The position numbers were made by a program, and so were the translations under genes. Below, in pieces: positions 37,891 to 60,546 of a stretch of 64,000 bases of DNA (positions within the stretch are counted from its first letter, which is position 1; every line of letters begins with the position of its first letter). The stretch covers positions 992,001 to 1,056,000 of the forward strand of contig JAJHTX010000009.1 in assembly GCA_032164295.1 (NCBI GenBank), in the 5' to 3' direction. This DNA is from Inonotus obliquus. Taxonomy: Eukaryota; Basidiomycota; Agaricomycetes; Hymenochaetales; Hymenochaetaceae. A model generated the notes under the pieces. The model did not search any database and was not told the origin of the DNA. It saw only the letters and a list, made by a program, of their open reading frames with translations.

Positions 37891-38873
37891 CTGCCGACGC
37901 TCATATCTTGGTTCCCCCGCGATACCAGCATCAATAATGATCAACACTCCCGACTTGAACGCATGGTTTGAATCCCCTTAGACGCTTTGCAAGTATTTTT
38001 TCTTCGTCCTGATTCCTGATTATTGTAACGGATCGCTCTCGGCACTTTTTATCTTCGAGTCTTTATTATAGAGATGCATATTCTTCTTCGCCTTCTGGGA
38101 CACAGCAAAGTCTTGTGTGTATGTACTATGCACCCACTCTCTCTCAGGCCTCGTTTATCTCTTTCGTACTTGTTCTGCTTATTGAGGGTATTCTGATCTT
38201 TCGACTCTTACTGGTCGGCCTTGAGCACGTCCCCTGCAGCTATATGGAACGTTCGAGTTGTATGCTTCCGCTGTTCGCTTACTACTCCTATTCATGTTGC
38301 CTTTTGAGTCCATGCTCTTCGGTGTACGCATGCCTCTCCTCACATATGTTCGTATGAATTATGGTTGCAGGCTTGAAATAAACGGATTTTATGTCGTTTT
38401 GGAGCTTACCTGCATGAGGCATCAGTTGTGTATGTTCATGTGGTCGAAGTTTGATACTGGCTTTCCCATCCGCTTTGGAAGGTTGATTGCTGGCATGCCC
38501 TGTGGCCGGCGTGCTATGGCTTGCCATATTTGTTGGATTCAGGACCCAGAGTCGCGTCCATGGATGAGACACCTGATGGGAAAATTGGAGGAAATTTCTG
38601 CACAATAACTCTTGTTCTCACTATGATATACTTCGTGTCATGAAACACGCAAAGAGACTATGCCGTGCCGTGAATGAGTTCAATCAGTATGAACGTGGCA
38701 GCAGTTTGTGAACAATCGAGTTAAAGCTCAGCTCGGCAATTTCCCGCATAATGCACTTTGAAACTCCGATTTTCACCGTTTCTCCTCCCGCATCAGTAGA
38801 ACCGTAATGCAGACGACCCAACAGCTATGCAAGTTGTTACTGCTTTCCTGTGCACCACCCACTTTCTACCGCC
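37891..38873. other. Intergenic spacer before the kinase cluster
   Basis: A 983-bp spacer. Plus-strand open frames here, such as 38258-38608, are Cys- and Met-rich and overlap others in a way typical of non-coding DNA. No motif is recognised. The part from 38640 on should contain the promoter of the first cluster kinase. Confidence 0.4.
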
Positions 38874-41295
38874 ATGAGCCTCATGCAGCGTGATGGCCAC
38901 CTGGCTGCTCTCGAAGAGATACTTGCTGACTTCAAGCATCTTGACCTCACTGGACGCGTTGAATTCGACCATCCAAAGGTTCCGGTTGCCCAGGGTGGAT
39001 TCGGCGAGGTTTACAAGGGACGCTATAGGCACCCAGATGGCTCGGAAACTGCCGTAGCGATCAAGTGTCTAACAGTCTATTTGGATGGAAGGCGAGACGT
39101 GATAAAGGTGAAGTATCGAAACATTTGAAAGATGAATAATATATTTCAAACTCACCTTAATTGCAGATATTCAGGCGCGAGATCAAGGCGTGGAGTATAC
39201 TGCAGCACCAGAACATCCTCCCACTACTAGGATATATCTTTGAAGGCACTGAGCACGAGCCGCTGAACGTACCATCTCTCGTCTCGAAATGGATGCCCAA
39301 TGGAGGCATTGCGGACTTCATGAAAGCATCGGGTGATAGCTACACCAAATTGGATGGCCTTGTACGCCAGAGACTTTTTACGAAGTTTTCGTGTTTGTGA
39401 CATCGACCGTGCCGGAAAGGCGCTAGACATGGCCCAAGGTCTTGCACATCTTCACGAGAATAATGTAGTTCATGCTGACTTCAAACCAGTGAGTTCTGAG
39501 CATCGGATGTGATGGTGGCTGACAATGATATCACAGGCAAACGTACTTGTCTCCGAGGACGGCAGAGCACTCATATCTGATTTCGGATCTGCACATGTCC
39601 GTTCTGATGATGATTTTGGCTCAGTCTCGAGTGACGTGTCGGGACTACGAGGCACTTCCAGGTGGCTGGCCTACGAACTCCTCGTCCCCAGTGAACGAGA
39701 TCCCAAACCCACAAAAGCATCGGATGTCTGGGCATTTGGGATGGCCCTATATGTAGGAATTTCTTCCTCTCCACTCAGAGACGGAACATTCATCAGATCG
39801 TCTCTTTCAGGAGCTGATAACAAATGACCATCCGTATGCGGATTGTCTAATCGACGCACAGGTCCTTATCTCAGTCATGAACCGCGAACTCCCCGCGTGT
39901 CCAAGTATGCTTGATTTCCGTGAGAAACAGCTTTGGGACATTTGTGTGTCTTGCTGGAAATGCAGTCCTGTTGAGCGACCGTCAATGTCCGACATCTGCA
40001 GGACAATCAAGTTCACCATAGATATTGCGAGCTCAGGATCTGCGATGGTGTCTGACTCATCTCAACTTGATGACAGACCTACTTCATCGTCGAAGTTATC
40101 CGGGCCTTTGAAAGTGAGGTCGCAGTCAGTGGCAGATTTCTCATCGTCATTTTTTAGTTCTCTCCTTTCGAAAGTGGAAAAAAAGGAACATCGTCTTCCA
40201 CCGGGATTTTTAAGGTTCCTTCCGTCTTGTCTGCATGAAGAGCTCCTGCAACGGCACATCGGCATCAGCGACATACAGATCCCACATGACGTTAGGAATG
40301 GTGGCTCTAGCGACTATTTTGTTGGTACTCACAAAGGAGACCGAATTCTTGTCAAGAGGGTTAATCCACCCAGTTTTAATGAGCGGGAAGTGCGCTTGCC
40401 ACAATTCCGTTCTACTCAATCCGTGCCCTGACTGTAAGAGTTTCAGGTATTCTTGAAGGAGATCGAGATTCTACTTGCAATCCCACCACACCCAAATGTG
40501 CAAACTCTTCTGGGCTATACGGAATACCCATACGGGCTCCCGCCGGCGCTGGTGTACGGTCATGTTGGTGGTGACGACATCTTGTCTTTTCTCAAAGAAC
40601 GTCCAGAATCCGATATCCTGGCACTTGTTCGTATTCTTGTCTTTCCTCGCGCTCGTACGGACTAATGATTTCTACTGCAATGGCAGATGGTAGGAATTGC
40701 CGAAGGACTAGTGCATATCCACAGCCAGGACGTCGTACATGGTAACTTGAGAGCCGTGAGCCGTATTCTCTTGCTCATTAAATAGACTGCAATCCTCATT
40801 ATCCACATAGTCGAATATCTTTGTCGAGAGCGATGGGCAACCATTCATTACGGGATTTGCCTGTGCACGCAAGCTGCCGTGCGATAATGGCAAACGGAAT
40901 GTACAGGGCTCACTAAGATGGATGGCACCCGAAGTGATGAATACGGAGCACAAAAACTCGGAAATCATAAGGAAGGAGCGGGATGTATGGGCATTTGGTA
41001 TGACAATATATGTACGTCTCTTCCATTCTGATTTTGCAAGCTGAGTCCAACGTCGTTGCCTCACAAGGAACTATTATCCGGGGACATTCCCTACGCCGAA
41101 GAGAAGTATGACGCACTTGTTGTGCTCGATATTACAGAGGGGCGGCTCCCGATCTGTCCGTTGACATTTTGGAGCTGGTCTCCAGTTCGTCAAGGGATAT
41201 GGTCCATTTGTCTGGCTTGCTGGAATATGCGCCCAGAAGCACGTCTGCCGATGCACAAGTTAGTCGGTGCAATTAGAGGACTGTCTGTTCTATAG
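38874..41295 (+). CDS. TKL-like protein kinase with tandem pseudokinase domain (cluster kinase A)
   Basis: Domain 1 (about residues 40-310) has the P loop VAQGGFGEVYKGRY, the ATP-binding Lys in AIKCL, the catalytic loop VVHADFKPANVLV and the metal-binding SDFGSAH, followed by SDVWAFGMALYELIT; it should be active. A Ser-rich linker of about 90 residues leads to a second kinase-shaped domain. That domain has Lys in RILVKRV, but its catalytic loop reads VVHGNLRASNIFV, with Asn for the catalytic Asp, and the DFG position reads TGFACAR. It then continues RWMAPEVMN and ERDVWAFGMTIYELLSG. This is an active-kinase/pseudokinase tandem, in the opposite order to JAKs. About eight introns join in phase, several at the same positions as in the other cluster kinases. 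Substrate and role are unknown. Confidence 0.87.
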
Positions 41296-41737
41296 AGTGC
41301 TATGGTAAATTTTACATTTCTGATCACCCACCAAAAATACATTCCGGACCCTAGAAATTTGGGAAAGTTGGGTCGGAACGTGAAAGCTCACTTGATTGGT
41401 GTGATCATTATCATTCTAGGTATGATTTTTCCCGACATGACACGAGCAATACATACTACTTCTTCCATATTTACTTGAGATCGACGCCAGATCTCTAAAC
41501 TATCCAGCACTATCCTCTTTGTTCCCTTTGTCCAAAGCCCTCGATAGCATGGTACGAAGGTAGCTTGAAGGTAACAAGCGCTCGACACATCGATATCAGA
41601 TCTATATTCGATTATGTTATCCGCCGAAGGGTGTACTTATTGGGTGTGTACCGCCAATGTCGGCTGATTATATTTTTTATACAGCTGCAGGTTCTTGGCT
41701 CGCGTTTGCACAGCACATTGGTTGCCCTTAGTCCACG
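41296..41737. other. Intergenic spacer, promoter of cluster kinase B
   Basis: A 442-bp spacer. Its distal half contains a 77-bp segment (41568-41644) nearly identical to one upstream of kinase C. The proximal half has a TATA-like stretch (TATATTTTTTATA near 41670) and TTGGTTGCCCTTAGTCCA just before the ATG, which is also duplicated at kinase C. Confidence 0.55.
41568..41644. repeat. Duplicated upstream segment, copy 1
   Basis: 77 bp matching 44348-44424 at 76 of 77 positions; the mismatch is G at 41623 against T at 44403. It lies the same distance upstream of kinase gene B as copy 2 lies upstream of C, showing that the promoter was duplicated together with the gene. Its identity is higher than that of the coding regions, hinting at constraint or recent conversion. 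Confidence 0.9.
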
Positions 41738-43627
41738 ATGAGCTCGACAGCCCCTCCCACGCATGATGACATCGTCGAACTGCTTAACGATATCCAACAT
41801 CTCAATCTTTCAGGATCAGTTGTGTACGAATCGAAAAGGGCCGTTGCTCGAGGCGGGTATGGCTCCGTTTTCAAGGGGAATTTCCGAGATGACGTAGAGA
41901 GAGAGGTCGCTGTAAAGCGACATACTGTCTATGAGAATGGCGGCGATCGTCGCGCTATCGCAGTGAGCGGTACTTCGCTCATACCCGTGTATGACTAAGT
42001 TAGATCGACCTGCAGACCTTCATCCGTGAGATCAAGGCTTGGAGTAGACTGAACCATCCGAATAACCTTCCGCTCCTGGGCTATACTCTGGACGGCGATG
42101 GAGAAGAGGTGCTTACTATACCTGCGCTCGTCTCAAAATGGATGGACAATGGGAACATTTTGGGATTCGTAAAACGCAATCCGGATTGTGATATACCGAT
42201 GCTGGTATGTAGTCTTGCCGATACTGAAATTTCCTGTATATATATTCATTCATACCATTATAGGCTCTTGGTATGGCAAACGGTCTTGCGTATCTGCACC
42301 GGATGGATATTGTGCATTCTGATATAAAATCCGTGAGACTTGGTTCTCTTCTGGCATTAGTACTTACTCATAAATTCGAAGGCGAACGTTCTCGTTTCGC
42401 CTCAGGAAGAAGCTGTGATCTGTGACTTTGGCTGTGCGAGCGTAACTCACGGTCCCGGCTCCGCTAACGAAACAGCCAAACTGAGGGGCAGTACTAGATG
42501 GTTGGCCCACGAACTCATCGCTTACTCAGACAAGTATAAGAGTGCCACGAAGGAATCGGATGTATGGGCATACGCAATGACCGTTTACGTGAGTTGTCTT
42601 TAAAGCCTACTGGTAGGAAGCTACACGGTATCACTATCCCACAGGAAATGTTGACAAAGGGACCACCATATGCAGACTTATCTAACGATCAACAAGTTGA
42701 GGTGGCAATCGCTAAGGAACGCCTTCCCTATGCCCCACCTGGTCACCTAGAACCGGGAGAGTCCCTGCACCAGAGAGAACTTACCGCCATTTGCGTGTCG
42801 TGTTGGAGATGTGAACCTAATATCCGTTTCACCATGCTCGATGTTTGTTATCACGTAGCGGACGTCGTTCAAAGGACTCGAAACTATTTCCCTTCGCGTT
42901 CTGGTCATAGCTCTGAGGGAGATGGACAATCTGTAATGGCGGCTACCCAAAACTCGATAACTCAACTGCCGACCCAAACGAACGATGTTTCTTCTACGTC
43001 ATCCAGCGCTTCACTAACTACTTTCGTGAGTGCCGCAGGAAAACATTCCGAATGTGATTGTAAGTCGAGAATTGGTTGTTCTCCAATATGGAAAACAGTA
43101 CCCCGCGTCCTTGTTATCGAGGAAGATATCGGAGTTCAGAGCTTCTTGGACAGGCTCTTGAATCTCTTTGGTTGTGATGTGGAAATGTGTCCTATTGACA
43201 AGATCGCCGACAAACTTACCCGCGCGAAGTACGAGCTTGTGTTAATGGCACGGTATCTCATCTTGCCCACTTTACTGCCGTATTCTGATGAGAATATCTA
43301 GGGTAAGGCCATCAATAACCAGGAAGCTTTACAAGCAATCAAGAATATCCTGAATACGACGCCAGTAATTGCAATGGTAAATAGCACGAACCGGTTTGAG
43401 GCTACGAATTATTATAGGCGCGGTACAGAGCCCTGGCTAGGACATCATTCACTTGGCTATCAACTGACCTGAGGTTTAGGTTTAGGAATCAATAGATTCC
43501 TGGTGAAGCCTCCCACAATACAGAGCGTAATAGAGATGGTTAAGGTGCGTAAGAGACGTTTCCGGCTGGTGCAACGCAACTAAATCCGGACTGTTAGAGG
43601 AATCTTGGTCACCTCACGGTTCACTAG
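41738..43627 (+). CDS. TKL-like protein kinase fused to degenerate receiver domain (cluster kinase B)
   Basis: The kinase domain has the P loop VARGGYGSVFKGNF, Lys in VAVKRH, the loop IVHSDIKSANVLV, CDFGCAS and SDVWAYAMTVYEMLT. A Ser/Thr-rich linker follows, then a receiver-like domain beginning PRVLVIEEDIGVQSFL, with FGCDVEMC and YELVLM. The next exon, by alignment with gene C, starts at 43302 with GGT, so Gly replaces the phospho-acceptor Asp. The later Thr position reads PVIAMVNS, but the Lys-Pro motif remains (FLVKPPT). The tail ends KRNLGHLTVH. The intron at 43248-43301 would have a GC donor (GCACGG) and a TAG acceptor. If unspliced, the frame hits a stop at 43299 inside the receiver. 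All later exons stay open, arguing against simple decay. Confidence 0.8.
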
Positions 43628-44520
43628 TGTACTCCTAAGGCTACGAACCGGATCTATGGTCGAGTGATTGCCACGATAAATATGACTGTACTAAAGCCAT
43701 TTGCTCGATTAGAAACTTGCTTCCCTCCAAGCTCTTTACCATTACGTGCATCTAAGAATCTCATGCTCACTTCCAGTCCCGAGACCATGCTTTTTACATA
43801 TCTTTGTAACAGTAGCGTACCGCTGATCACTGATGCCTTCCCTCTTTTTCGTAATATATCTCGACCCTTCTATCCTGTAAATGATGAATCCCGTTCGCGA
43901 AAGCACAATAATCAGACTTGAATCGAGTTTGTGTATCAATGAAACGCGCATAGAAAGCTCAATAACTTTCAACTGTGGTACTGACTTCGTCCAGCCAGAA
44001 CAAGCGCAGATCTTTTGTTGAGCGGAGCGGAGATCCGAAGTTTTTACCGTATTGAGAAAGTCACACCGTATATGGAATTTTTCTCGGCTGTGGGAATGTG
44101 AACTGGGATTGGCGCTCGTATCATATCCCTTTGTTCCTTCCCTTTGTCCCCCTCTGCTATGATGCCAAGGCATTTTCTATAATACGTATTTACTACACGC
44201 GTCAATATCCCGAGTACAAATGCACGGCATTCAAACTAAACCTAAGCGTGTTGTGTGCTCCTATAGGTGCTGTGTAAATAGGGGTAGAGGGAGAGGAGGT
44301 TTCATGGTACAACTTGAATCACGACCGGGAACGCGGACTGCTGTACAAAGGTAACAAGCGCTCGACACATCGATATCAGATCTATATTCGATTATGTTAT
44401 CCTCCGAAGGGTGTACTTATTGGGGCGAGCACACCCAGCGTCGGATCCGATCATATTTCTCATAAAGCAACAGGATCTTGGCCCATGCTTTCACAGCGCA
44501 TTGGTTGCCCTTAGTCCACA
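43628..44520. other. Intergenic spacer, promoter of cluster kinase C
   Basis: An 893-bp spacer between the duplicated kinase genes. The last 170 bp are the duplicated promoter described separately. A 143-codon minus-strand open frame at 43742-44173 shows no family motif and is not annotated. Confidence 0.45.
44348..44424. repeat. Duplicated upstream segment, copy 2
   Basis: Second copy of the 77-bp segment at 41568-41644, offset by 2780 bp, with one mismatch. It is followed by diverged but alignable promoter sequence down to the shared TTGGTTGCCCTTAGTCCA just before the start codon of kinase C. Confidence 0.9.
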
Positions 44521-46247
44521 ATGAGCTCAACAGCCCTACCCACGCATGATGACATCGTCGAACTGCTTAACGATATCCAGGATCTCAATCTTTCTGGATT
44601 AGTTGTATACAATCCGAATCGCCCCGTTGCTGAAGGTGGTTTTGGCACGGTTTACAAGGGGACGTGCAGGAGCTCTGGCGTGGAGAAGGAGAAAACGGTC
44701 GCTGTAAAGCAACTCAGATTTTTTGAGAACGCCAGCAAACAAGTTGTTTTCACTAAAGTAAGTGATACTTTGCACTTGCCTGTGTAAGTAAATAAGCTTC
44801 GATCGACCTGCAGACCTTCATCCGTGAGATCAAGGCTTGGAGCAGACTGAACCATCCAAATGTCCTTCCGCTCCTGGGCTATACTCTGAACGGCGATGGA
44901 GAAAACACACTTACTATACCTGCGCTCGTCTCAGAATGGATGGACAATGGGAACATTTTAGGATTCGTACAACGTAACCCGGATTGCAATGTACCAATGC
45001 TGGTACGTAGTCTTGCCTACAATTCAATTCCCCGTGTACATATTCATTCCTTTTAAGGCTCTTGGTATGGCAAGCGGTCTCGCGTATCTTCATGATGAGA
45101 AAGTCGTGCACTCTGATATGAAATCTGTGAGACTTGGTTCTCTGCTGGCATTCAAGTTAGTACTTACTCATAACTCCGAAGGCGAACGTTCTCGTTTCGC
45201 CTCAGGAAGAAGCCGTGATCTGCGATTTTGGAAGTGCACATGTTTCACATAGTCTCAACTCGGCTAACAAATCGAGTTCTGTGACCAACCTGAGGGGCAC
45301 TGAGAGATGGTTTGCCTACGAGCTCTTAGCTCTCTCTCAGAAGTATCCGATTTGTACGAAGGAATCGGATGTATGGGCATATGGGATGACTGTTTACGTG
45401 AGTTGTCTTGAGTGCCTTCTGGTTGTGGGCTACACAGGATCACTATCCCACAGGAACTATTGACATTGGACAATCCATACGCACATAAGATTGAGGCCCA
45501 GGTTTCGTTGTCGATTATCGGTAAAGAGCTTCCGCATGGCCCACCGGGTTATATAGAACCAGGAGAGCCAGGGTACCATGAACAACTTTACGATATTTGC
45601 AAATTATGTTGGGAGTTTGAGCCCGAGAAACGTCCCACTATGGCCGAGATTTCTCGACGATTAGCGATCCTCGCTACAGGACCCTCCGATTCTGAGTATT
45701 CTCCGGGATGGAAAATATTCCCCCGTGTCCTTCTTATCGAGGGTGATACCGAAGCTCAGGCGTTTTTGATCAAGCACTTGAAACCCTTTGGCTGCGATGT
45801 AGAAGTGCACCCTGATGACAAGATCGCTGAGAGGCTTAACCGCGTGAAGTACGAGCTTATATTAATGGCATGTCTCTCATTTTTCTCACAGCACTTTCGT
45901 ATGCTGATGAGGATATTCAGGATATGGTCACGCCTAAGCAGGAAGCTTTACAAGCAATCGTGGATTTCCGGAAATTTGATGATACGACGCCAATTATTGC
46001 TATGACAAATGGCGCGGGCCTGAATGAGGTTGATAATCGTTATAGGCGTGGTACGGAAATCTGGCGAGGGATTCCTTTACTCGAATATCGACTGACAAAG
46101 TTTTAGTAATGAATGGCGTCCTAATGAAGCCTCTCACCATAAGAAAGGTAGTGCAGATGCTTGAGGTGCGTGATAACTGTCCAACTGAAGCCATTTTACT
46201 AATTCGTACCGTCAAAGAAACATCTTGGTCGCCTCAAGGCCAACTAG
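44521..46247 (+). CDS. TKL-like protein kinase fused to Skn7-like receiver domain (cluster kinase C)
   Basis: Eight exons give a 447-residue protein. The kinase domain (about 30-300) has P loop VAEGGFGTVYKGTC, Lys in VAVKQL, loop VVHSDMKSANVLV, CDFGSAH and SDVWAYGMTVYELLT, all intact. The last 119 residues (329-447) form a response-regulator receiver: RVLLIEGDTEAQAFL with acidic residues, FGCDVEVH, YELILM, then Asp376 in DMVTPKQEAL, PIIAMTNG (Thr404), VLMKPLTI (Lys426) and MLEKHLGRL. Asp-Thr spacing is 28 and Asp-Lys 50, close to CheY (30 and 52), and the sequence is closest to the Skn7 receiver. The intron at 45868-45920 lies directly before Asp376 and needs a GC donor (GCATGT). A kinase-receiver fusion suggests a link between phosphorelay signalling and a Ser/Thr kinase. 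Confidence 0.87.
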
Positions 46248-48217: not shown

Positions 48218-51049
48218 ATGGCCTTTCACCAGGTAACAGCGACGTCGCTAACTCCCTCCCGTCCCGCCCCCCAGGCGCCAATCCGTCGCGACACAGAGTC
48301 CGGCAGTTTCGCTAGCTCTAGCACCCTCGTCTCCGTCGGATACAAGACATCCTTCCAGTTTAACCAGCCATCAGGCGCGGGTTCGTCCTACGCCACGTCC
48401 TACTCTGGCATCGGTGCTTCTCCCATCCGCCAAAGCCCTCCCAAAATGAATAGCGAAATCATCCGCACGGGCTCGGCGAGCATAAAAGAGGAGGGTTTTG
48501 CGAGCATATTCTGGGTGCGCAAATGGCTTGTGTTGAAGGAACATGCACTCTCTTTCCACAAGAACGAGGTATGCGACAACTCTGTCGCTTCATCTCTTAG
48601 TCACTGATCTAAGTCCACATCGAACACAGGGCGCTCCGCAACAAAGCATAATCAAACTCAATGATGTCACGAACGTCGAGCGCGTAGATGTCAAACCATA
48701 CTGCCTTGTTATCGAGACACCGGATAGGAAAGTCTACCTATCTCTCAAGAGCGATGAAGAGGTTTATGCGTGGCAGGACGATATCTACTGCCGCAGCCCT
48801 CTACAAAGCGTTGGCCAACCAACGAACTTTGTGCACAAGGTACATGTTGGCTTTGATCCTGTCTCAGGAGGGTTCACCGTGAGTGTCGCAGTATGAGGTG
48901 TTTTAATCAGGATATCACTCAGAATCCTTCTCGTTACCCAGGGGTTGCCTGAGCAATGGAGCAAACTACTGACACGATCGGCGATCACACGCGAAGACTA
49001 TGCCAAAGACCCACAGGCGGTACTGGAAGTACTGGAATTCTATACAGATCGCCAGAAGCACGAGGAGGAGATGGCGGGATTGTCGCCGGGTATCTCGCGC
49101 AGCGGCTCCTCTGCCAACGCCACGCTCTCACCGTACTCAGAGACTCCGTCTGCACCCCGTTTCAACGCTGGTACTGGATTAGCAGGTTCAGGCAAACCCG
49201 GCCCGGTACAAGCGCTCGCCTCTGATCGTCCAGGGCTTGCCCGCCAGGATTCCGCACCTTCGGGACTCAATGGAAAATCATCCACGGCCATCGCAGCGGC
49301 TCGTGCGGCTGAAATCGTCAACGGCGCGCACGCACAACACGCCAATACAATCGGTGCCGCTCCTCAGGGTCGTATGCCACTCTCGCCAGGGGCGCTTCAA
49401 GCAACGCGACCCGCACCTCCTGCTCCCCAGCGTCCCTTGCTCACAGCTCAACGCCCAGCCCCGCAAGCTCCGAAGCCCGGAATTCCAGATCATACACCGA
49501 ACAGCCAAGACTTACGAGCCCGCGCGAAGGCACAAGGACCACAAGATCGCACAGATGTTCGGCCACCCGGACTTGACCATGACCATATTCCGCAGCGCAA
49601 GGACTCTATCCCGATGCGTGAACAGGATCGCGAGCGGGATGAACGTCGTCCGCAAATGCCGCCGTCCAAGTCTTCGCCTGCAGTTTCTGCACCCGGTACA
49701 CACCCTGCACCTGGCGCGGCTGGCGCGATCGTCGGCCCACCACCTGTGAAGCCATTGCAAACGACGAAGAAGCTCCCGAAGGAGCAACCTGCTGCCGTAA
49801 CTATCACTGCTCCCGCAGACGAGCCTGTCAATGGAAGTGTAGCCGCTGCCGCGGCAGCTTTGGAAAAACCAAAGGAGAAGGAGAGGAGAATTAGCACCAT
49901 GACGGAAGCGCAGATCATGGAAAAGCTACGTAGCGTCGTTCACCAGGATGACCCGAAGGTCATTTACAGCAAAATCAAGAAGATCGGACAAGGGTGCGAG
50001 TTTTCTCTTTACTATTCGGTATCGTCCTCAATAATGTTTATAATTTCTTCGAATCCATAGTGCCTCGGGACATGTCTATGTTGCCAAAATGCTTGCCACG
50101 GGCAAGAAAGTCGCGATCAAAGAGATGGACCTTTCACGCCAGCCGCGCATAGAACTCATTGTCAACGAAATTCTCGTAATGAAGGAATCTCAACATCCGA
50201 ATATCGTCAACTTCCTTGAGAGTTATCTTGTACGGAATAATGAATTATGGGTCGTCATGGAGTACATGGAAGGCGGGGCTCTCACGGATATCATAGAGAA
50301 CAACACCCTTGAGGAGGAACAGATCGCTAGCATCTGCTTTGAGGTCAATCCTCCGTTTCCGGATTCAGGCTAGAAAACTGATGGCAACTCTTTGAACTTT
50401 CCAGACCTGCAAGGGCCTCAGACATCTTCACGAACAACATATCATCCATCGAGACATCAAATCGGACAACGTCCTTCTTGATTCTCAAGGACGTGTAAAA
50501 ATAAGTAAGCCTTGTCACCATCTCATTCATCACTCGGTTTCATCAAACTTACTATGCTTCCTCTTCCCTTTTCTCTCACACAGCTGACTTCGGCTTCTGC
50601 GCAAAGCTGACGGATCAGAAGTCCAAGCGAGCGACCATGGTTGGGACACCGTACTGGATGGCTCCTGAGGTCGTCAAACAGAAGGAATACGGCGCGAAGG
50701 TGGATATATGGTCACTTGGTATTATGGCGATTGAAATGATCGAGAACGAACCGCCATACCTTGATGAAGAACCGCTTAAGGCACTATACCTCATTGCCAC
50801 GAATGGCACGCCCACTCTTAAGAAGCCGGATGCCCTTAGTCGCGAACTGAAGAGCTTCTTGAGTGTGTGCCTCTGCGTAGACGTAAAGAGTCGTGCGTCG
50901 GCGAATGAACTCCTTGAGGTATGGCTTTTCGTTTTGGAAAATACTAGCTATTGGTACTTACTCATTTCCAGCACGAATTCTTGAAGAAGGCATGCACTCC
51001 TTCGGGCTTGGCACCATTATTACTCTTCAAGAGCCGGCCAGCAAACTAG
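48218..51049 (+). CDS. CLA4: PAK-family Ser/Thr kinase Cla4 (PH, CRIB, kinase)
   Basis: Cla4 is a Cdc42/Rac effector controlling polarity, septation and septin assembly at the plasma membrane. A Ser-rich N-terminus is followed by a PH domain (about 95-205: [20 protein letters not shown], then [19 protein letters not shown] and [11 protein letters not shown]). A CRIB motif starts [21 protein letters not shown] Pro/Ala/Ser-rich linker of about 280 residues leads to the kinase domain: the P-loop glycine run split by an intron (KIGQG, then SGHVYVAKM), [43 protein letters not shown] and [16 protein letters not shown]. The last exon gives [20 protein letters not shown], the expected C-terminus. Domain order fits Cla4 rather than Ste20, which lacks PH. 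Confidence 0.95.
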
Positions 51050-56653: not shown

Positions 56654-56965
56654 TCAAAAGTCGTCCAAAACTTGCTCTATCCTCCTCCTCTTCGCTGCTA
56701 ATCGTGCTGACCTTCGGACATCGGTCTCTTGACCAGGATCAGATTCCGTTTCCCACTTTCTCACCAGGGACCGGGTCGGAAGATCCTTGGAAGAAACCCG
56801 AGGTGGCTTAACCATGGAAATCTTAGGGCAGAATTTCCAAAACTCTCCATCCTTCGCCAAGCAAGGTGTCATGCGTTGCAGAGAGGGCGACGATCCAACT
56901 GGTTGAGACTTGGGGGAAGATTTATTTATTTCTCGATCCTCAGGGGGAGGGAGAGGGAGGAAGTA
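56654..56965 (-). pseudogene. Displaced 3' end of the NTPase gene, cut off by a transposable element
   Basis: Minus-strand open sequence lies immediately beyond the element and ends in TGA at 56654. It encodes a Ser/Pro-rich stretch, then ISMVKPPRVSSKDLPTRS and a very basic end, RRSARLAAKRRRIEQ, that looks like a nuclear localisation signal. Taking out the element and one copy of the TA duplication puts this sequence in the same frame as the NTPase coding region across the junction, about 104 codons with no stop. The segment is therefore best read as the former C-terminus of that gene. It retains a 72-codon ATG frame but is unlikely to be expressed as a separate gene. Confidence 0.65.
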
Positions 56966-56996
56966 AGGTAGGGGAAGTATAAACTCGACTAGGTGT
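56966..56996. repeat. Left terminal inverted repeat of the MITE
   Basis: 31 bp, the exact reverse complement of 57587-57617. Confidence 0.9.
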
Positions 56997-57586
56997 GACG
57001 CGCGTCATGCGACCCTGACTTGGCCTGACTTGCCTCATCCGGTGACTCTGGACCCTTTCTTAACTGCAACTTCCACTCAACACAAACTCGAATTTGGTTC
57101 CCATAGATCTCTTCTAATAAAAATTACAAGCAGATGTATGTTTTTAAAATTAAAAAATATGGACCCCTGACCTTCCGATTAAGGGATGAACCTTTTTTGT
57201 GTCAAATGGCTCAGAATTCATTTTCCAGCATTCTGGTAAGCTTTTCGTAAATTTCGAAAATTTCGACCGCAGAATTTTTGCCGCTCTTGGCGGGCACAGG
57301 ATGACAAATACTGTCCAAATATAGTAGTTTACTTATGACTCATATCTATTACTAATATTTGACTAATACACATTTATAACACGTATCCTGACGGCTGAGG
57401 GAGGTTCAGGAGAGCTGGCTATTGGTGAAACAAGCTTTGTTTTGATGTTTTGTTGAAGTACAAATGGGATTCTGGCTGCTCTTCTGCTGGCTACTACTGT
57501 CCTGAAATCCGACCTCGAGATTTTTGCCTCAGGGTCCTTCCAAATCGGGTAAGCTCAGGGTGCTCAGGGTCATCAGTCACATTGTG

Positions 57587-57617
57587 ACACCTAGTCGAGT
57601 TTATACTTCCCCTACCT
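57587..57617. repeat. Right terminal inverted repeat of the MITE
   Basis: 31 bp, the exact reverse complement of 56966-56996. Its outer end abuts TA, and the stop codon of the NTPase gene (57619-57617 on the minus strand) spans this junction. Confidence 0.9.
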
Positions 57618-60546
57618 TATTTGCTCTTCCACCCCTTCGATCGATCGATCAATGCATCCCACAGAGTCTTCTCCACCGTCCCTGCAATACAGGGCAAGAT
57701 ATCTTCTGAGACGCTGTCGCACCATATATCGATGGCGTCGTAACACCTTCCATCTTTCAGGGTAACTCTAGTGTCCCTGGCCCTAACGGAATTCTGTTCG
57801 GACCCCAATGAAAATACGATCCTGACAATAGGAGGAGGGTTTCGCGCAGTCCCTTCAACAAAACCAAGTCTGCACGGGCACATGCGATCGTTATACTCCC
57901 ATTCGTTCTCTGCGTTGAGGATGAGATTGATGCGAAGCTTTATCTGAATGAAGACGCCAGAAAGATTCGATCGATCTATCTTATCCTCTCCGGGCAATAG
58001 GAATGGAATAATCGCATCGATGCTTTCTTGGCAGTTAGCGCAGAGGAGGGCGGCGCCGCGCATGAGTAATCCAGCTAGATACTGACGTTGCGCAATACAC
58101 TGTTCGTAACTCTTGATAAAGTGGTTGAAGTGCATCTTTGCGCCTCCAAATAGCTTATCGATATGATGCTTTACGGCTGGAATTTCTCCAAACAGGCTAT
58201 GCAGGAACTCAGGGACGGTAAACACGCGGTTCCACTCCAGCAGGTCGGGCTCTTCAGGATGCGGAAGATTGTCGGAAACTCCGCGCGTATTTGCGCCACG
58301 TTCCCGCATACAAGCAGATTGCCACATCCGCGAGGTATTCTTCTCGCGAACCGTCTCATCCCTTGCGAGTAGTAGAATCAATAGTGCAACCAGCTCTCCC
58401 TTATCTCCCCTATGCACAGAGAAGCCGCTGAGAATTTCTCTCAAGGCATTTATAATCCCACTTTTCTGGTTCATCATTGCGACCGATGCGGCTTCCGCAA
58501 GAATGGGCTCTGACGAAGACATCGTCAGTATCGTTTCCTCGTCAGGATCTAGCCGCAGACAGATACGCATGTGGTTTTCCACAAATTTATACTGAAACGA
58601 GGAGCTGCTCTGGAACTCGATGGGTAGCCTGTGACACAAACAAGCTATGGCCTGATCAACGGATAAATTCCAGTCCAATTTTGCGACATTGAGCAGCTTC
58701 CCAACTACATGGCTCATCGCATCGCGACGCATTGTGTAGTACATTGCCTTGTCGGTGTTCGCGGTTGACGCAATCGATGATCCCGAGTCGCTAGTACTGA
58801 GAGCATTCGGTTCGCTGGACGGGATATCAACACGTGTAGCCCATCTGTAGCGAGTCATCAGTAAGTATAACTCGCCAATAATGACAAAGCATGGTCATAC
58901 AGAGGACGACCTAGGTGCATCATTGTCCATTCAGATGCTGCTTGCTGTATTGTCAATTCCCCTTCCTTGAGTTCATCCAACCCGAATTCGTCGAAAGAGC
59001 AGAGAGTAAATGCAGGGTTTAGCTTCAGCTGCCGGTTGAAAACCCTCCGAGATGAGTCCGGCAGACTGGACGGAGATAAAAATGGTGCAATGTATCCGGT
59101 CGTCGACAAGAACAAGGTGAAAAGCTGCCACTTATTTAGATCGTGAAGACACCCGCGAAGTGTGTTAAGAACAGGAGGCGCATCTTCCCGACCAGGAGGC
59201 GGGATGGTGAGTCCACCGGATTCATCAAATGCGATAGTCACGAGTGGCTCCTTTGGAGAACCCGTAGGTAACAGCTTATCGAGATAGGAGGTGAGAGCTT
59301 CGCATGACCCTTTTAGTCGAAGTTTTATTTCATCGCCCGTAGCTTCCTAAATCTAATTCAGGTGAATCCTTATGCAAGAGGAAGGACAAGACGAACTTTG
59401 CAGAGTTTCTTAGCTTCACTGACGACTCTCTCGTATAAATCCGCGCGATACTGTGTGTATTTCTTATACATCTTAGTGGTCGACATGAGTCTTCTGAACC
59501 GCCGCGACACGTCCACGTACTTGCTCGAGTTTTCACTATCTCCATCAGTTGTACTAGTATCGATAATCTTTTCCGCCTCGTTTTTCACTTCTTGGAATAT
59601 TGCATGGAGCAGCGCTTCGATTTTAGGTTTCGGGTCAACACATTCCATTGACTTCAGGAGGTACTCGCGAACATCACTGTCGGACGGCGGGAATCCTGTG
59701 AGAAGAGTTGAGAACGTGCTTATGTTAAAATCGGTTCAACTAACATACCAGTTGACGTCGGTTCCCTCAGGCAGATAGGGATCACGAAATGTCCCTTGCT
59801 CAGTTCATCGACTGTGCGAGACTTGCCTGTCCCAGACGATTGGATAATTGGGCACATATTAGCATAGCGGTCTTCATGGACTTCACGAATCTTATAAAGA
59901 GCACAAATGTGATGCCAGAGTTCCTCATGCAAGTTCCCCTTGTACGGAGTCGTCCATGCAGCCACAGTTACTATGGGGGAATCAGCTTCTCAGCAGCCTG
60001 GGGTATCATGAACATCCTTGTACCTTTCTCCTGCACGGTTTCCTCCTCTCGTTGGCTGTTATTCGTAGGGTGAGCGGTCACAGCTCTCGTCGCACGGAAC
60101 AGTGCTGGAGCAGAATGGATTAGCACAGGGCGAGAACTGAATAAGCTTAACTTACGATGTTGAAAGAGCGTATTGAGCTTCAGTATCCAATCATCCTGAT
60201 TGATGGTGTCGTCGACCATCAGCGCCTCCAACTGTAACAGGAAATTGCCGCGCAGCTCGGGAGCCAAGTTCCCCAACACCTCTCCAACGCCTTCCCAGTG
60301 CAAAAGTCGCTCGTCCAGTGCCAAATCCATACCCTTCTCTTTACACGTTCCCAGGAATCTTAATATAGGGTCGGCAATAGCGCCATATACACCATCATTC
60401 CCATTATGTAGCAACAGGTAGAGAGCGTTGAACGTCTCGCGCCAACCTGGCTTTCCTTCCCGGATCATCTTAAAGACCCTGTATTGCCAGGAATTTGTTT
60501 CATGAGCTGCCGTATCGTCGTTGTCGACATCCATGCGTTCGTCCAT
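57617..60546 (-). CDS. Crinkler-like P-loop NTPase with nuclease-like C-terminal region, 3' truncated
   Basis: Read from 60546, about six exons encode roughly 880 residues. The acidic start MDERMDVDNDDTAAHE is followed by a helical region. The Walker A segment is CPIIQSSGTGKSRTVDELSK and Walker B is LVTIAFDES, with a sensor-like LFTLFLSTTG. These mark a STAND/AAA-like ATPase. The C-terminal half contains RGAALLCANCQESIDAIIPF and SGVFIQIKLR, spaced like the D...(E/Q)xK core of a PD-(D/E)XK nuclease. This NTPase plus nuclease-like combination is seen in Crinkler-RHS-type proteins; no N-terminal secretion or LFLAK-type segment is visible, so a host-internal role is likelier. The stop TAA is formed at the junction with the adjacent transposable element. 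An in-frame ATG at 60597 could add 17 residues. Confidence 0.78.

Follow-up and report, generated by a model that had tools for sequence, protein, structure and literature searches.

A Skn7-derived receiver joined to a TKL-like kinase in a tandem gene pair of Inonotus obliquus

Can a fungal gene join a eukaryotic-type protein kinase directly to a phosphorelay receiver and, if so, where did the receiver come from and what could it do there? The question was raised by a first-pass annotation of the window (the whole 64,000-nucleotide stretch of DNA analysed here, G000:C9:992001-1056000), which had proposed that one gene, hereafter gene B, encodes a TKL-like kinase followed by a Skn7-like receiver. 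We examined this gene model, the neighbouring genes and the whole genome (36.07 Mb, 30 contigs).

Results

Once its eight exons are joined, gene B (44521-46247, plus strand) gives a product of 447 residues with a single stop, at its end. The seven introns measure 52-56 nt; six of them are GT-AG and the remaining one is GC-AG. The features of the gene are as follows.

44521-44757, plus strand: exon 1, start codon and kinase N-lobe with the glycine-rich loop EGGFGTVYKG and the VAVK lysine
44814-45002, plus strand: exon 2, kinase alpha-C region to hinge, inside a block 88% identical to the neighbouring gene A
45058-45126, plus strand: exon 3, catalytic loop HSDMKS, with AN supplied by exon 4
45182-45397, plus strand: exon 4, catalytic-loop N, DFG, activation segment and VWAYGMTVY
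45454-45867, plus strand: exon 5, end of the kinase domain with CW(X)6RP, short linker, and first half of the receiver (from 45697) to LILM
45868-45920, plus strand: GC-AG intron of 53 nt, coinciding in position and phase with the first intron of the skn7 receiver; its predicted removal joins LILM to D376
45921-46050, plus strand: exon 6, receiver residues D376, P380 and Thr404
46107-46165, plus strand: exon 7, receiver stretch MNGVLMKPL including Lys426, to MLE
46218-46247, plus strand: exon 8, KHLGRLKAN and the stop TAG
45697-46244, plus strand: Skn7-derived receiver, residues 319-447, with three introns common to skn7

Both parts of the proposed fusion were recovered by Pfam profiles in this one spliced protein. 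The kinase domain (about residues 34-307) matched PF07714 at 4.6e-44 and PF00069 at 3.5e-40, and the receiver (residues 329-437) matched PF00072 at 3.9e-8 in the whole protein (33.9 bits, for a curated cut-off of 30.2 bits) and at 2.4e-9 when taken alone (37.8 bits). The positions assigned earlier to Asp376, Thr404, Lys426, the last residue (447) and the end of the gene (46247) all agree with the exon chain. Neither a histidine-kinase domain nor the HSF DNA-binding domain PF00447 was found by Pfam in the 447-residue product, the latter being present in a separate skn7 gene. The catalytic Lys, Asp and Asn and the DFG are in place (VAVK, HSDMKSAN, DFG) and, judging from these motifs, the kinase is probably active.

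Without the GC-AG splice the receiver would stop after its third strand, and its C-terminal half would be lost. Introns of this type amount to about 1% in fungi, according to a passage of PMC7072748. Two other excisions were rejected. A 20-nt intron (45872-45891) is too short and gives a lower Pfam score (0.00015), and a 44-nt GC-AG intron (45868-45911) leaves the receiver at 2.3e-7 and 31.4 bits alone, and at 27.5 bits, below the cut-off, in the whole protein. Because the 44-nt version scores lower against PF00072, the 53-nt intron is the supported one, and we infer that 45868-45920 is spliced out.

Gene A adjoins gene B directly upstream. The two genes have a common exon plan and both are open from start to stop.

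41738-43627, plus strand: gene A, tandem paralogue of 500 residues with the same plan, kinase then receiver, and a longer linker; exons 41738-41962, 42016-42204, 42264-42332, 42382-42588, 42645-43247, 43302-43422, 43486-43544 and 43598-43627
43248-43301, plus strand: GC-AG intron of gene A, 54 nt, homologous to 45868-45920 of gene B
44348-44424, plus strand: 77-nt block upstream of gene B, 99% identical to 41568-41644 upstream of gene A

A reading in which a stop beyond the receiver junction interrupts gene A was rejected, the gene being open with the homologous 54-nt intron. Its kinase motifs are kept (VAVK, HSDIKSAN, DFG), and its receiver reached 3.8e-8 and 33.9 bits against PF00072 alone, and 30.1 bits, just below the 30.2 cut-off, in the whole protein. 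Since the whole gene recurs upstream, and since the receiver introns match those of skn7 (see below), the fusion seen in gene B is more than chance.

The 77-nt block precedes each start codon by about 95-170 bp, and the larger repeat blocks shared by A and B are only 71-88% identical. A genome search found two copies of it only. Its near-identity may reflect a shared promoter or a recent gene conversion.

The receiver had been called Skn7-like, and the likeness turned out to be one of descent. The genome's own skn7, on contig C2 (L043), has a receiver matching PF00072 at 7.5e-27 and, 1.7 kb upstream on the same strand, an HSF domain matching PF00447 at 1.6e-14. When the genome was searched at E<=10, the receiver of gene B (in its 44-nt-intron version) returned five stretches, three in gene B, one in gene A and one on C2 (8.2e-12), and that of gene A returned six, confined to the B, A and Skn7 loci. 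The Skn7 receiver retrieved itself, then gene B (3.5e-7), gene A (2.7e-5), and other receivers from 2.9e-4. Its exons break between LVLM and D, within the Gly before MNDIL, and between MLE and K, in phases 0, 1 and 0. All three receiver introns of A and of B fall at these same positions and in these same phases; by simple arithmetic, random placement over about 387 sites would produce this with a chance near 1e-7. The alignment also revealed the Skn7 lead-in P.W..PRVL and a Cys at DD+17 in A, B and Skn7, a Cys found in 98% of Skn7s (section 6 of PMC8510515). The shared introns, together with the lead-in and the Cys, indicate that the A/B receiver is descended from skn7 through a copy made at the DNA level. 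Thus gene B is like Skn7 in its receiver sequence, lead-in, Cys and intron positions and phases, and both marks of a Skn7-type receiver, the Cys at DD+17 and the shared introns, are found in it. Unlike Skn7, which has an HSF domain and a DDD/D/T/K pocket, it has a kinase instead and an altered pocket. The capture looks old, because pS between Skn7 and the gene B receiver is 0.62. Copies in sister species may either exist and have been missed by annotation, or have been lost.

As for the kinase, the TKL label of the first-pass annotation is fair, but the nearest match in the literature is FslK, a lineage of fungal kinases close to the tyrosine kinases that forms an expanded family, with Fomitiporia mediterranea as a named case (PMC3937382). 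The best 60 of 1208 solved matches are, by name, tyrosine kinases and TNNI3K. Where true tyrosine kinases have DL(R/A)A(A/R)N and XP(I/V)(K/R)W, as defined in the same article, gene B reads HSDMKSAN and ERWFAYELL. Like FslK and the fungal TKL kinases of Agaricomycetes, it has CW(X)6RP and no DLAARN. It differs from them in its receiver, none of its best 120 relatives having matched the receiver profile; members with extra domains make up only 16 of the 241 FslK described there.

Coniferiporia, Phellinidium, Fomitiporia and Sanghuangporus supply the best-scoring relatives of the kinase (best 120 of 507). A and B grouped together (support 99/99) in a tree that took in 23 kinase domains, drawn only from relatives found here and not including P0006. 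Together with two kinase genes of the local cluster, a Fomitiporia protein and a Sanghuangporus protein, they formed a clade supported at 93/87. The two cluster genes, at 38800-41300 (plus strand) and 54300-52000 (minus strand), each appear to encode a kinase domain with a second, degenerate one behind it, in which HRD/DFG has become HGN/TGF or HAG/TEL; an open frame leads from the end of the first domain towards the second (read by eye). This kinase-pseudokinase order resembles that of JAK kinases. Two kinase-like domains, the second without catalytic Asp or DFG, were also found in nine of the nine outside proteins P0001-P0009, from Coniferiporia and Phellinidium. The cluster genes thus belong to the same kinase clade as A and B, and P0001-P0009 fall outside the 93/87 clade where placed, but in both groups the second domain is kinase-like, whereas in A and B it is a receiver. 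It is plausible that the receiver replaced a pseudokinase; one-domain relatives exist as well, and the tree is no proof of such a replacement.

The genome gave 104 exon-level matches to the kinase query at E<=0.001, other kinase groups included, and the TKL-like family looks expanded. In the window, 50414-50759 holds fragments of another protein kinase, which by motif we take to be of the STE20/PAK kind. An inverted repeat with 43-nt arms (56957-56999 and 57584-57626, 93% complementary and 584 nt apart) might be a small mobile element.

The receiver of gene B had been described as intact in every key feature, and this does not hold. Its pocket reads E333-G334-D335, D376, T404 and K426, with Pro at D+4. 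The phospho-accepting Asp, the Ser/Thr and the Lys are all present, but the pair of metal-binding acids, D-D in Skn7 and E-E in gene A, has become E-G, and the Gly at D+8 and the Ser at D+10 are lost: aligned with Skn7, gene B has Ala384 at D+8, Gln at D+10 and Ile at K+4. In gene A, the phospho-accepting Asp is replaced by Gly and the Thr by Val; the Lys is kept. According to the residue rules of PMC8510515 (section 3 part 1 and section 4), the gene B receiver counts as atypical, a class that takes up about 3% of fungal receivers, Rim15 aside, in that article. The Asp at DD+1 might partly stand in for the lost metal-binding acid.

We then compared the two copies for traces of selection. Between A and B, dN/dS is 0.57 (0.42-0.78) in the kinase, 0.98 (0.58-1.64) in the receiver and 1.28 (0.75-2.69) after the GC-AG intron; a receiver ratio of about 1 gives, taken alone, no sign of constraint. 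With Skn7 used to polarise the changes (123 aligned codons, 27 amino-acid differences assignable), the receiver has 5 amino-acid changes in B and 22 in A (p 0.0015), next to 5 and 4 silent ones, counts that are small and use only sites where one copy still matches Skn7, 34 columns differing in all three. After the GC-AG intron there are 3 changes in B and 16 in A, before it 2 and 6, and in the kinase 19 and 36. Asp, the D+4 Pro and Thr are among the residues altered in the gene A receiver. Across Skn7, A and B, 32 of 130 columns are invariant. The smaller number of polarised changes in B than in A means, therefore, that the B receiver kept Skn7-like residues, including in the part that depends on the GC-AG splice. 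It is from these polarised counts, not from the pairwise dN/dS, that we infer selection on the gene B receiver, which is probably made and used.

No stop is present in the 129 (B) and 126 (A) receiver codons. Simulated neutral drift leaves none with a probability of 0.05-0.07, and of 0.23-0.25 for the C-terminal half of the receiver alone, so that open frames by themselves are modest evidence. The alignment of the two receivers has one gap, of 9 nt, and that of the seven introns has eight gaps, six of them not multiples of three (by eye). The absence of frame-shifting gaps from the receivers strengthens the evidence of the open frames.

We looked for the same arrangement elsewhere. Among 41 candidates, the gene B receiver (44-nt version) had no outside relative at E<=0.001, and the gene A receiver had none at E<=10 among 146 candidates. 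A whole-protein search scored 7997 proteins, 507 of them significantly, and the receiver profile was not found in the best 120 of these 507 (best E 1.4). The search for the same two-domain order, suggested at the outset, returned no case outside this genome, which holds only for the relatives listed, since the best 120 of 507 were examined. Gene callers may truncate such genes at the GC-AG intron and so hide relatives. A TKL-kinase/receiver fusion was not found in the literature searched; two supplementary tables that possibly hold one lay outside that search.

Discussion

A pairing of kinase and receiver is already known from Rim15, whose kinase is of the AGC group, and a TKL-type kinase with a Skn7 receiver would be a new version of it. 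Gene B is like Rim15 in having a eukaryotic-type kinase with one C-terminal receiver, which in some species is atypical and Asp-less (PMC8510515 section 7). Unlike Rim15, its kinase falls outside the AGC group, in line with the earlier statement that the gene is not of the Rim15 kind: PF07714 outscores PF00069 in gene B, and the reverse is seen in a separate Rim15-like gene of the same genome (L046, G000:C4:2689500-2695500), with 5.3e-26 for PF00069, on one exon frame, and 7.9e-14 for PF07714. The receiver of that gene, above cut-off at C4:2692732, has its intron elsewhere than the A/B receiver introns (by eye). The Rim15-like receiver (L046, L001) has EDN and LMD, as described for Basidiomycota in PMC8510515.

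Protein-kinase-type and phosphorelay domains also occur together in Candida albicans CHK1, which carries a receiver, and in some hybrid histidine kinases of Physarum. Both have a Ser/Thr-kinase-like domain, which for Physarum is stated in PMC4758236. These proteins are histidine kinases, whereas gene B has no histidine-kinase domain and its receiver comes right after the kinase.

We favour, at a probability of about 45%, a reading in which the product of gene B is a TKL/FslK-type kinase, probably active, carrying an atypical, captured Skn7 receiver that has been kept by selection and would act mainly by contact. The skn7 receiver segment, introns included, would have been copied behind a kinase gene of the local TKL cluster, and a later tandem duplication of this fusion would have produced A and B. 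In gene B the receiver would be a contact or docking module, for Ypd1, Skn7 partners or its own kinase domain, and would depend little or not at all on phosphorylation of the Asp; in gene A it would be a pseudo-receiver under relaxed constraint. The loss of the second metal-binding acid, together with the Asp-less precedent of Rim15, makes such contact-based regulation the favoured mode. In S. cerevisiae and C. albicans, Ala or Gly replaces the Asp of the Rim15 receiver (PMC8510515 section 7), and some Rim15 receivers may likewise work by contact. Counted against docking is the fact that gene B keeps the Asp, Thr and Lys, which would be dispensable in a pure docking domain.

These same residues, with the Pro at D+4, would be in place if Ypd1 passed phosphate to Asp376 and so switched the attached kinase, a direct route from the His-Asp relay to Ser/Thr phosphorylation. 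Such a relay would also fit with the smaller change of the receiver in gene B than in gene A, with the retained DD+1 Asp, credited in Skn7 with helping to bind the metal (PMC8510515 section 6), and with the genome's Hpt protein (PF01627 1.3e-7, HFLKGSSAALG, translated by eye), intact-looking Skn7 and loci resembling hybrid histidine kinases (by eye). However, the second metal-binding acid is Gly, and bacterial receivers cannot carry out phosphotransfer without the metal (PMC8510515 section 4); gene B also lacks the D+8 Gly, the D+10 Ser and the basic K+4 residue, and the sister copy lost both Asp and Thr. We regard this relay as unlikely, though still in contention. That the receiver is unmade or dead, whether through retention or mis-splicing of the GC-AG intron, leaving a kinase with half a receiver, or through decay of both genes into pseudogenes, seems to us improbable as well. 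It would agree with the GC donor in both copies, where the nearest GT donors with the same acceptors give a frame shift and a stop (by eye), with the A-B receiver dN/dS near 1, and with the residues lost from gene A. It is at odds with receiver exons that are open in both copies with their sole gap in frame, with the 3 changes against 16 in the C-terminal half, and with the kinase dN/dS of 0.57.

We consider it very unlikely that gene B encodes a redox-sensing kinase in which the Skn7-signature Cys C351 (DD+17), not the Asp, carries the signal, as proposed for the Asp-independent oxidative branch of Skn7. That Cys is among the 32 invariant columns, the oxidative response of Skn7 needs the receiver and not Asp phosphorylation, and a role for the Cys is a published hypothesis (PMC8510515 section 6). 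Yet Phe-Gly-Cys may be structural, and both A and B have Gln at D+10, where a Ser/Thr is phosphorylated in the Yap1 branch. More broadly, a TKL/FslK kinase could be wired through its captured Skn7 receiver either into the Ypd1 relay or into the Skn7 redox branch, so that one protein would lead from His-Asp or redox signals to Ser/Thr phosphorylation without a MAP-kinase cascade; we hold this wider proposal to be doubtful.

Gene B is a clear, intron-backed case of a receiver moving by DNA capture from a response regulator to a eukaryotic kinase, and it widens the pairing of receiver and kinase beyond Rim15. What a receiver with an altered pocket does on a kinase is unstudied for Rim15 too (PMC8510515 section 7). 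The A/B pair, with one receiver drifted and the other still Skn7-like, provides a natural comparison for the role of a receiver on a kinase when its phosphorylation pocket is altered.
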